Positions 18,612 through 39,001 of a stretch of 64,000 nucleotides of DNA are shown here, one piece after another. Under the pieces are notes generated by a model that did not search any database, was not told the DNA's origin, and worked only from the letters and a program-made list of their open reading frames with translations. The stretch comes from Natrinema salaciae (lineage in GTDB: Archaea; Halobacteriota; Halobacteria; Halobacteriales; Natrialbaceae): positions 186,001-250,000 of the forward strand of contig NZ_FOFD01000001.1 of the NCBI RefSeq assembly GCF_900110865.1. The letters run 5' to 3'. Made by a program: the position numbers and the translations under genes. How positions within the stretch are numbered: position 1 is the first letter of the stretch; each line of letters opens with the position of its first letter.

Positions 18612-18827
18612 TTACCCCCCGCGAACCTGCTCGAGCAGGTCGGGCGGCATGCCACAGCCGCAGGGTTCGACCGTCCCGCTCTCCGGAGCGGTGACGACGA
18701 CGAAGGCGACCGGCTCGCCGCAGCGCGGGCAGGCGGGGACCGGTGCCGGCTCGACGGTGACGCTCGTCACGCCGCCGTCACGATCCGACCCGTCGCCGTC
18801 ACGACCCCCCTCGTTGCCGCCGCTCAT
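18612..18827 (-). CDS. Small zinc-ribbon-like protein
   Basis: This 71-residue protein has a CPRCG knuckle at about residues 33-37 and a second Cys pair, PCGCG, at about 56-60, consistent with one zinc site. The first 25 residues are Gly/Asp-rich and probably disordered. Many haloarchaeal microproteins of this CPxCG class are known, mostly without a defined role. No partner gene is evident. The start is uncertain because the N-terminal part is low-complexity. Confidence 0.6.
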   Translation of the reverse strand: MSGGNEGGRDGDGSDRDGGVTSVTVEPAPVPACPRCGEPVAFVVVTAPESGTVEPCGCGMPPDLLEQVRGG

Positions 18828-18910
18828 TCGACTCCCCCCGCGATCCCTCGCAATCCGAAAATCGGACTCGAGACTACTCGTATCGGGCGATTCCGCGGTC
18901 GTGCGGGATG

Positions 18911-18917
18911 TTTATAT
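18911..18917 (+). promoter_or_regulatory. TATA box of the structured-RNA/microprotein locus
   Basis: TTTATAT is centred 25 bases before the ATG at 18939 and stands out in its GC-rich surroundings. It implies a transcript beginning at about 18938-18942. Confidence 0.6.
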
Positions 18918-18938
18918 CCCGGTAGTTTGAACGTATGC

Positions 18939-19064
18939 ATGGCTCCTGAACCCTCTCGGGTTAGGAAGCCAGTCTCGGGTGCTTGGGGCACCCGGGACGT
19001 TTTGCGGACCGTCCCCGACGGAGACCGGCTTCCGTTCTACTCGTTGACCTGTTGTGACTTATAG
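18939..19064 (+). CDS. Possible 41-residue leaderless microprotein (same locus as a structured RNA)
   Basis: An ATG exactly where the TATA box predicts the transcript to begin opens a 41-codon frame (MAPEPSRVRKPVSGAWGTRD... ending in LTCCDL). No known motif is visible. Codon use is less GC-biased at third positions than in neighbouring genes. The same DNA folds into several perfect stems, so the frame may be incidental to a non-coding RNA. I give the coding reading lower weight than the RNA reading. Confidence 0.3.
   Translation: MAPEPSRVRKPVSGAWGTRDVLRTVPDGDRLPFYSLTCCDL
18939..19064 (+). ncRNA. Candidate structured RNA, unknown class
   Basis: Four stems can be drawn without mismatches. Hairpin A pairs 18949-18953 with 18958-18962 (AACCC/GGGTT, loop TCTC). 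An outer stem pairs GGAAGCC 18964-18970 with GGCTTCC 19027-19033. Inside it, hairpin B pairs 18972-18982 with 18988-18998 (11 pairs, one U-G) and hairpin C pairs 19009-19013 with 19017-19021. The outer stem and hairpins B and C together form a three-way junction. A TATA box at 18911-18917 precedes it at transcript spacing. It does not match the tRNA, RNase P, SRP, box C/D or H/ACA patterns I know. Confidence 0.5.
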
Positions 19065-19174
19065 CTACTGCTAATTGGTCGAAACTAACGCGGGCCCGGT
19101 GATCACCGGCTCCTCGCGTCGCCGGGTACCAGTGGCTCGAGTCGTCGATTTACCGGCTCGTGGCGAACACCGAA

Positions 19175-19210
19175 CGGGACCGGATTCGAACGACGTGAAG
19201 ACGTGCTCGC
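19175..19210. repeat. att-like repeat copy 1 (tRNA-Leu 3' end plus flank)
   Basis: This 36-base sequence matches 19977-20012 with a single difference (G for A at 19192). Its first 17 bases (19175-19191) equal 20090-20106 in the tRNA-Leu T-arm and acceptor region. The remaining 19 bases are not part of the tRNA, so both non-tRNA copies share element-derived flank. Confidence 0.7.
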
Positions 19211-19972: not shown

Positions 19973-20012
19973 TGCGCGGGACCGGATTCGAACAACGTGA
20001 AGACGTGCTCGC
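19973..20012. repeat. att-like repeat copy 2 (tRNA-Leu 3' end plus flank)
   Basis: Bases 19973-19993 are identical to 20086-20106, that is, the discriminator base, acceptor strand and half of the T-arm of tRNA-Leu. Bases 19977-20012 match copy 1 with one difference. It also forms the left arm of a palindrome that ends at 20044. Confidence 0.75.
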
Positions 20013-20052: not shown

Positions 20053-20086
20053 ATGCTTCTCCTCGCGGTATCGCTCGGAGAAGCAT
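20053..20086. repeat. Perfect 10-bp inverted repeat abutting the tRNA-Leu 3' end
   Basis: ATGCTTCTCC (20053-20062) and GGAGAAGCAT (20077-20086) are perfect complements with a 14-base loop. The right arm ends on the tRNA discriminator base, so the hairpin would form in the tRNA trailer and could act as a terminator or processing signal. Confidence 0.5.
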
Positions 20087-20170
20087 GCGCGGGACCGGAT
20101 TCGAACCGGCGGACCCCTACGGGACAGCGTCCTAAGCGCTGCGCCGTTGGCCTGGCTTGGCTACCCGCGC
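20086..20170 (-). tRNA. tRNA-Leu (anticodon UAG)
   Basis: The minus strand folds into a complete class II tRNA. The acceptor stem is GCGCGGG/CCCGCGC. The D-arm region is GCC...GGC, and the anticodon stem CAGCG/CGCTG has loop CTTAGGA giving anticodon UAG. A long variable arm (TCCCGTAGGGG...) marks the Leu/Ser class, and the T-arm has loop TTCGAAT. The discriminator base is A (20086), as required for leucine in haloarchaea. CCA is not encoded. No intron is present. The 3' end serves as the attachment site of the adjacent island. Confidence 0.95.
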
Positions 20171-36991: not shown

Positions 36992-39001
36992 ATGGCACGC
37001 GACTATCCGGGAGGGAGCAGTGAAAATCCCGTCCCCACCGACGAACGGACCACTGAAACGACGATCGACCGGCGCTCGTATCTGAAGCTGGCCGGCGTCG
37101 CAGCGATCGCTACGGGGACGGCGACGGGAGCCGCGAACGCGGCGTCCGGTGAATACGAGACGATTGCCGCGAGCGGCCAGACGATTCGAATCGACTCCGG
37201 GGAGACGTGGGAGAACAAGCTCATCGATCTCGGCACTCGAAATTCGATCACGATCGTCGCGAAGGGGACCGACTGGACGATTCGAAATATCGGCTTTACG
37301 GGCGAAGTCGCGTACGACGACACGCTCTTCGCGGTGGCCGATACGGGCGGTGGCACCTCGCGAATGGAGAACATCTACTTCGACGAGTGTCCGTCCGATC
37401 GACCGACTGGTGGCAGTTACCGAGCGAAGTGCATCTGGGTCGATCCCGATCACAACGGATCGCTCGAGGTATCGCGGTGCAATTTTTCCGCGAACGGAAA
37501 CAACGGCATCTACGGCTCGGCGCCCGCATACAACGGCGACGGTGGCGATATCGTACTCGCCAACTGTTACACCAACGACAGCCACCACACGGGGCTCCGC
37601 ATCGGCGATTGCGGCATGAAAATCGTCGACTCCGTCGTCTACAAGAGCGGTTCCAGTTCCGCGAACCGCGGTATCTGGATCTGGGGCGACGGCGGCGACG
37701 TGGCTACCCTGGAGAACGTCCACGTCATTACGAACGGCGCGGGCGTCGGAATCGATACGAAGAACAGCCCGAACGTGAAGATGACCGACGTGTACACCGA
37801 CGACGGCACCGGGACCGACGGCAACCCCGACCACTTCATCCCCGACGGCTGTCCGGAAAGCGCTAAAGCGGCAGCATCCGGCTCCGGGAACGAGGAGCAG
37901 CCGTCCGACGGCGACGAGTCGGCCGGTGAGGATCTCCCCGAACGTACCCTGACGATCATCGGCCAGGGCGATCCGACGGAGTACTACGTCGAAACGACCG
38001 GCGAGATCGTTCGCAACCCCGACCGCGGGACGCTCGAGAGCCACGACGCGATCGACGGCACGACGGCGACGGGATGGGTGACGACGACGAGCAACGTCGA
38101 CGGGTTCAGGTTCGACGGAGAGCTCGTCGACGTCGGGTTCCACCAGGGGCGTGCGACCGTCGAGGTCGACGGGGAGGAAATCGACCCCGACGAGTACGGC
38201 GAGGAACCCGCTGCCCTCGAGAACACGATCCTGATCGACGGGTTCGGGACAGCGGGCACGAGCCACTACGAGTTCGCCGTCTCCGGCGCCGCCGAGAAGT
38301 CGACGATCAAGGGCGCGACGATCGACGGCGCGGACACCATCGACAGCGGGACCGTCGTCGGTAGCGTCGGCGGCTGGCGCGACGCGTTCCGCTTCGCCGG
38401 CGAGCTCGAATCGCTGACGGTCGACGGCGACGCGCGCGTCTCGGTCAACGGCGAGCTGGTCGACCCCACCGAGTACGGCGCGGAGTTCCCGCACGTCCTG
38501 ACGATCGTCGGTAACGGGTCGCAGGCGGAGTATACGGTCACCGTCGACGGGCGAATCGAGACGATCGCCGGCGACGACTCGGACCGGTACGCGACGGTCG
38601 AGTCGGGCGACACGGTCGTCGGCTCGATCGAGCGAGGCGTTCAGCGCTTCCGCTTTTCCGGTTCGGTCTCGAATCTCACCTTCCACCAGGGGTCGGCCAA
38701 CGTGTACGCCGATCAGGAGGAACTCGACCCCGACGCGTTCGAGTCCGCGCCCACACCCCCGCACTCGATCGTGATCGACGGGAGCGACGCATCGGGCACG
38801 ACCGAATACGAGTTCACGGTCGACGGTGACGTCGTCAAGTCCAGTTATCGCGATGCGACGCTCGAGGGCGGCGACGTGATCGACGGCCGTACCGTCACCG
38901 GGAGCGTCGACGACGATCTCGACGCCTACTGGTTCGAGGGAGACATCACCGACTTCTGGCTGTTCGGAGATGCGTCGGTAGACGTCGAGTACGACGTCTG
39001 A
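36992..39001 (+). CDS. Tat-exported right-handed beta-helix protein with four C-terminal beta repeats
   Basis: This 669-residue protein has a Tat signal (DRRSYLKLAGVAAIATGTATGAANA). It is followed by a pectate-lyase-like beta-helix (about 50-290) with phrases such as NGIYGSAPAYNGDGGDIVLANCYTNDSHHTGLRIGDCG. After an acidic Ser/Glu linker come four related modules of about 85-90 residues, each starting LTI(I/V)GxG or IxIDGxxxxGTxxYEF and containing FRF-G-L. The modules look like carbohydrate-contact or stalk domains. No PGF-CTERM anchor is seen. The ATG at 36992 is preferred. Substrate is unknown. Confidence 0.75.
   Translation: MARDYPGGSSENPVPTDERTTETTIDRRSYLKLAGVAAIATGTATGAANAASGEYETIAASGQTIRIDSGETWENKLIDLGTRNSITIVAKGTDWTIRNIGFTGEVAYDDTLFAVADTGGGTSRMENIYFDECPSDRPTGGSYRAKCIWVDPDHNGSLEVSRCNFSANGNNGIYGSAPAYNGDGGDIVLANCYTNDSHHTGLRIGDCGMKIVDSVVYKSGSSSANRGIWIWGDGGDVATLENVHVITNGAGVGIDTKNSPNVKMTDVYTDDGTGTDGNPDHFIPDGCPESAKAAASGSGNEEQPSDGDESAGEDLPERTLTIIGQGDPTEYYVETTGEIVRNPDRGTLESHDAIDGTTATGWVTTTSNVDGFRFDGELVDVGFHQGRATVEVDGEEIDPDEYGEEPAALENTILIDGFGTAGTSHYEFAVSGAAEKSTIKGATIDGADTIDSGTVVGSVGGWRDAFRFAGELESLTVDGDARVSVNGELVDPTEYGAEFPHVLTIVGNGSQAEYTVTVDGRIETIAGDDSDRYATVESGDTVVGSIERGVQRFRFSGSVSNLTFHQGSANVYADQEELDPDAFESAPTPPHSIVIDGSDASGTTEYEFTVDGDVVKSSYRDATLEGGDVIDGRTVTGSVDDDLDAYWFEGDITDFWLFGDASVDVEYDV

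Follow-up and report, generated by a model that had tools for sequence, protein, structure and literature searches.

A leader under antisense control was reportedly discovered in 1993, in phiH. The early transcripts T1 of phiH1 start at position 38582 and the antisense transcript Tant at 38732, next to the ATG of the open reading frame at 38733, and pairing of Tant with T1 leads to cleavage of the latter (PMC4284463 section 6.2; PMC6210493). The leader of the phiH1 transcripts T1-T3 (phiCh1 is a relative) is ca 150 nt long, has a strong fold (z -4.2) and carries the AUG at its end. Its closing-strand sequence recurs beside the AUG (AGAGC ... GCTC ... AGAGC-AUG), and a CxxC protein is the product of the first gene. 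Translational riboswitches with start-site masking share with the present system the layout of a conserved junction and, behind it, a strand at the start codon whose pairing would be mutually exclusive; for archaea, the fluoride switch of Thermococcus was stated in 2021 to be the only experimentally determined natural riboswitch (PMC8241225). Two further systems resemble the present one in their parts, namely the haloarchaeal one-domain CPxCG micro-proteins, which are small zinc-finger proteins with a C-x2-C motif (PMC6562870), and the CreTA and type III toxin-antitoxin RNA modules, in which a small RNA goes together with a regulatory partner and which are dispersed in haloarchaea.

Here, we analyze a locus in a stretch of 64,000 nucleotides from Natrinema salaciae (the window). 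We consider it likely that its minus strand encodes a cis-acting 5' leader that acts as a switch at an AUG, governs a short reading frame (ORF1) together with a coupled zinc-finger gene, and is accompanied by an antisense RNA. The features are collected in Table 1. The closest parallel is phiH1, in which the antisense start site immediately 5' of the AUG has the same geometry as that predicted for the candidate described here. The inner helices differ, however; the antisense RNA, proven for phiH1, is a prediction in the present case, and the present leader is chromosomal and multi-copy. A covariance model gave no significant sequence or structure similarity to the leaders of phiH1 or phiCh1, and homology with them was rejected on these grounds. 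In contrast to the translational riboswitches, the masking helix covaries weakly here and the downstream genes form no metabolic pathway. The zinc-finger protein differs from the known CPxCG micro-proteins in its second motif, PCGC, and in being nearly always found with a leader RNA and an overlapping ORF1. Finally, unlike in CreTA and type III modules, the structure is an mRNA leader rather than a toxin RNA, and no CRISPR-like repeat or link to Cas was noticed.

Table 1. Features of the leader locus, in window coordinates.
Feature	Position	Strand	Basis or remark
ORF1, 38 aa, MHTFKLPGYKHPARPRNRPIRVVSSPIFGLRGIAGGVE	18824..18940	-	stop overlaps zinc-finger start (ATGA)
Small zinc-finger protein, 71 aa, CPRCG...PCGC	18612..18827	-	no Pfam/NCBIfam family above cut-off
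Putative leader promoter CAGTAGCTATAAG, upstream element and TATA-like box (19064-19058)	19058..19070	-	box spacing, sequence
Structured 5' leader RNA through AUG	18938..19036	-	R3 match 90.9 bits; predicted TSS ~19035
P1 5' strand GGAAGCC, strand 1 of the three-strand switch	19027..19033	-	covariation
P2 5' strand GTCTC, partner GAGAC (18976-18972)	19021..19025	-	alignments, covariation
Hairpin H3, GGGACG...CGTCCC	18994..19015	-	A-U to G-C covariation in paralogues; minus-strand fold
Hairpin H2, CGGGTG...CACCCG	18976..18994	-	4/6 pairs double-changed in 31 matches outside the model
P1 3' strand GGCTTCC, middle strand common to both folds	18964..18970	-	
GGAGCC beside AUG, alternative partner of the middle strand, start-codon-masking strand	18941..18946	-	pairing counts, weak covariation
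TATA-like box TTTATAT (18911-18917) inside inverted repeat GCGGGATGTTTATATCCCGG; candidate antisense promoter	18903..18922	+	
Candidate antisense RNA over the leader, predicted start 18940-18941	18940..19036	+	TATA spacing, H1 wobbles, phiH1 Tant

The preliminary description had placed a structured RNA with its own promoter on the plus strand of 18911-19064, possibly with a 41-codon microprotein running through it. The elements it listed can be found in the sequence: the TATA-like box, the frame with its ATG, 41 codons and TAG, the 5-bp AACCC/GGGTT hairpin, the 7-bp GGAAGCC/GGCTTCC closing stem and the GTCTCGGGTGC/GCACCCGGGAC hairpin. The small CGTC/GACG hairpin is also present in the window, but it is not conserved, the conserved partner being GGGACG/CGTCCC. 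On the plus strand, the folding exceeds chance expectation: the whole 154 nt have a z of -2.4 (5 of 200 shuffles are equally good) and the fold core has about -3.8; averaged over 52 copies, z is -3.3, and -4.1 for the hairpin H1 alone. The microprotein was rejected, since the frame shifts among these copies (the H2 stem lies in frame 0, 1 and 2 in 32, 8 and 12 of them, respectively) and often ends early. What stands is the structured RNA and its family, while a stand-alone plus-strand RNA is probably wrong in view of the junction wobbles, the leaders of other families and the operon, as discussed below; most likely, the conserved fold had been put on the wrong strand.

The family itself is real, absent from Rfam and previously uncatalogued, and it is spread over the haloarchaea. 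Besides this genome, 41 of 100 relatives contain related copies according to a DNA search, and in the alignment of 52 copies the conserved block extends from just upstream of the TATA-like box TTTATAT to ca 180 nt beyond it. With a first covariance model (R1), the count for this genome is 14 copies; a second one (R2) matches 84 of 125 genomes of Natrialbaceae, with between 1 and at least 26 copies per genome. The matches that bear names belong to Natrialbaceae (Natrinema, Halovivax, Natrialba, Halopiger, Halostagnicola, Natronorubrum and others). The minus-strand leader model R3, for which 34 leaders were the input, has matches in 190 of 391 Halobacteria genomes, representing 66 of 86 genera; the E-values of models built here are rough, and the sequences are related to one another. 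Homologues of the kind the preliminary description had called for are thus numerous, and its statement that no described family has this shape agrees with Rfam 15, where neither the window element nor the outgroup loci matched any family at or above gathering, nor at E 10 in the sensitive scan.

We now turn to the strand. On the minus strand, the window element forms a clean three-way junction whose closing stem has ca 12 bp, in a leader of ca 100 nt. A TATA-like box lies at most 50 nt from P1 in 107 of 112 copies, and in 94 of those 107 it starts 30-31 nt from the P1 5' strand. The coding strand thus has a promoter-like element, then the covarying fold, then the start codon, which is the arrangement of a structured mRNA leader. 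In the 31 R3 matches outside the model, 14 of the 17 pairs of the closing stem and H2 show double changes, the compensatory changes that had been asked for, and 94% of the cells are paired, compared to less than 49% for every slide. The covariation score is 0.54, compared to 0.21 for shuffled alignments, and none of 500 shuffles reaches it; the alignments (A9 and A10) were fitted to the model and their sequences are related. RNAalifold gives compensatory changes at 13 of 18 pairs in the 34 leaders. An operator acting as DNA only, or a mobile element without an RNA role, was rejected because it leaves the covariation of the hairpin stems unexplained.

The core fold is also more stable on the minus strand (z -3.87, compared to -3.26 on the plus strand, over 105 copies), and the closing stem and H2 deviate there as G-U rather than A-C, with ratios of 41:17 and 60:18 in two match sets. 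A plus-strand alternative, fold B, was rejected since its closing stem deviates as A-C and not G-U, which points to the opposite strand. The energetics of the junction, its covariation and its wobbles thus favor a leader over a mainly plus-strand RNA, and the structure and strand of the leader are well supported. The hairpin H1 behaves in the opposite way to P1 and H2: its inner stem has 54 G-U to 5 A-C on the plus strand, where it is also the more stable in 84 of 105 copies.

These properties of H1 are what a stand-alone plus-strand RNA would predict, that is, a trans-acting small RNA that starts near 18940 from its own promoter and consists of H1 and a long H2, with the zinc-finger gene merely divergent. 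The long H2 likewise uses G-U on the plus strand, and the TATA-like box has its exact spacing in 94 of 112 copies. We nevertheless regard this reading as improbable. Its TATA lies within the conserved and coupled ORF1, the Halovivax and Natrialba copies (PRQKG/SRQKG) keep the inverted repeat without the TATA, the leaders of the outgroup have their own promoters on the other strand, and the junction covariation and wobbles favor the minus strand. An RNA on the plus strand only is thus outweighed by the wobbles, ORF1, the outgroup orientation and the covariation.

ORF1 follows the leader on the minus strand; its start is the CAT of a conserved CATG, and its translation runs M..(Y/F)ILPGYKRPAR... 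It is kept in nearly all copies, with an unconserved C-terminus. A zinc-finger gene is found within 600 nt of the RNA in 86 of 112 copies, and in 82 of these 86 the ORF1 stop overlaps or adjoins its start. In Natrinema, a protein of 50-80 aa with CPxCG...PCGC adjoins nearly every copy on the minus strand; a genome-wide protein profile search combined with the RNA model search pairs 14 of 14, 26 of 26 and 9 of 10 RNAs with a zinc-finger partner in three Natrinema genomes, the arrangement being constant. With this protein model, the pairing is lower in Halovivax (9 of 25) and in genome G048 (3 of 5). The protein is predicted to have a zinc-ribbon-like fold; a search of PDB folds gave no significant match, the weak ones being mostly ribosomal zinc ribbons. 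Pfam, PADLOC, PHROGs and NCBIfam returned almost nothing for the zinc finger, ORF1 and the outgroup genes. In one Halovivax genome (G120, C1:1843055-1850814), tandem zinc-finger matches are clustered without a leader RNA nearby.

In the proposed mechanism, minus-strand transcription would start near 19035, so that the RNA opens with GGAAGCC. The covariation shows that it forms a three-way junction closed by GGAAGCC/GGCTTCC and GTCTC/GAGAC, with the hairpins GGGACG/CGTCCC and CGGGTG/CACCCG. The strand GGCTTCC has a second possible partner beside the AUG, usually GAAGCC and in the window GGAGCC. As the two pairings are mutually exclusive, they suggest a translational switch between a state in which the junction is formed and the AUG free and one in which a hairpin masks the AUG. 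In the masking helix, 82-85% of the cells are paired, compared to 23-64% when slid; double changes are few and the covariation is weak. In 13 paralogues the masking strand is shortened to GTTGCC. Between groups, the strands change together (GGCTTC/GAAGCC, GGGTTC/GAACCC, GGTTTC/GAAACC and GGTCTT/AAGACC). Since the ORF1 stop overlaps the zinc-finger start, masking of the AUG would control both genes through translational coupling. Zinc or another small ligand could tip the switch, as could the antisense RNA or the product of the zinc-finger gene; our best guess is one of the latter two, or both.

The plus-strand TATA of the preliminary description is the complement of the PGYK codons of ORF1. 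Of the 112 Natrialbaceae copies, 94 have a TATA-like box (a consensus match only) at 28-29 nt from the AUG. The ORF1 codons beneath it are rare ones (CTA, GGA, TAT, AAA) and nearly frozen: Tyr is TAT in 65 of 65 cases, Lys is AAA in 106 of 107 and Leu is CTA in 73 of 90, while the genes of the window use TAT, AAA and CTA in 11%, 28% and 1%, respectively. Coding alone fails to account for this. Together with the exact spacing, the rare codons indicate that the box may be a second promoter, inside ORF1, for an antisense RNA that starts at the AUG, as Tant does in phiH1, and the H1 wobbles favoring the plus strand also make such an RNA possible. By analogy with phiH, its pairing with the leader would result in a block or in cleavage of the latter. 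The box is absent from 18 of the 112 Natrialbaceae copies and from all 31 outgroup matches tested, and the antisense part is therefore at best lineage-specific.

This bears on a rival scheme, in which control is by the antisense RNA only, in the style of phiH1, and the junction is a target for pairing and processing without any ligand or protein switch. The exact phiH1 geometry, the published antisense-dependent processing of T1 (PMC4284463 section 6.2; PMC6210493) and the nucleotide-level constraint on the ORF1 codons beneath the antisense TATA are all in line with it. We find it unlikely, however, because the 31 outgroup matches have the same junction with no antisense TATA-like box, so that the junction must have another use too.

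Outside the Natrialbaceae, the matches settle the ancestral orientation, since those inspected lie on the leader strand. The order there is a promoter-like region (in many cases with repeated palindromes), GGAAGCCCGG..., two hairpins, ...GGGTTCC, GAACCC-AUG and a reading frame, all on this strand. The leader precedes other genes in these families, often Cys-rich ones, and C-x-C or C-x2-C motifs occur in the first frame in 20 of the 31 matches. Such products could act on their own leader: the zinc-finger protein, or another Cys-rich one, would bind the junction and repress or activate its own translation. The nearly one-to-one association of leader and zinc-finger gene in Natrinema and the predicted zinc-ribbon-like fold, with its weak ribosomal matches, are consistent with this autoregulation. 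The first genes elsewhere are non-homologous to one another, however, and 11 of the 31 lack Cys motifs, and we consider it somewhat doubtful.

The surroundings of some outgroup leaders deserve mention. At four loci of another family (L216, L219, L220 and L221), the leader promoters are embedded in repeated palindromes of the TTACTGTATACAGTAA type, which are probably repressor operators, and a divergent, conserved 70-aa reading frame lies upstream of the leader. At four others (L322, L332, L343 and L344), a Cys-rich protein (MEKSNPSKQE...CQACG) 3' of the leader is paired with a protein of ca 320 aa containing ...GQISPFTLSGWLRHGCE..., which appears RAMP-like by eye and has no Pfam or PADLOC match.

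The flanking genes vary from locus to locus, with the exception of the zinc-finger gene, and non-orthologous copies resemble one another only between the stop codon of the zinc-finger gene and about +180. One locus carries the module in four genomes; others have the same flanks with no module in between, and in one it has decayed. Dispersal of this kind, over unrelated loci and in numbers from 1 to at least 26 per genome, would also be expected of a selfish or addiction module of the toxin-antitoxin type made up of ORF1, the zinc finger and the antisense RNA. This we judge very improbable, as there is no toxin signature, the ORF1 C-terminus is unconserved and the leader class serves unrelated genes elsewhere too.

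An IMG/VR contig carries a leader match (E about 1e-5 to 1e-7) beside a divergent repressor-like reading frame. BLAST of the module against plasmids and of two outgroup proteins against phages gave either nothing or weak matches to Halorubrum tailed viruses with no leader match nearby. We tentatively entertain a wider view, in which a class-wide haloarchaeal switch that exposes or hides a start codon, and is read on both strands, came from viral early operons and was multiplied with the zinc-finger gene on Natrialbaceae chromosomes as a portable unit. The covarying leader occurs in about half of the sampled Halobacteria genomes, in up to at least 26 copies, and on at least one viral contig. 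Occurring in genetically tractable archaea, it offers an RNA regulator of natural origin that can be tested, links the still-unexplained zinc-finger micro-proteins of the host to virus-type early-gene control, and would generalize the antisense leader control of phiH.

At L262 (ca 2230-2350), a zinc-finger remnant has lost PCGC and the RNA is gone, while relatives are occupied at this locus. Two to four copies of the module stand in tandem within a few kb at L026, L046 and L130. In the window, direct repeats of the 3' end of a tRNA-Leu gene (20086-20170) are found at 19171-19191, 19973-19993 and 20086-20106, with a pair extended to 36 nt at a distance of 802 nt. They resemble att sites such as accompany integrated elements; just beyond the outermost of them is the module.
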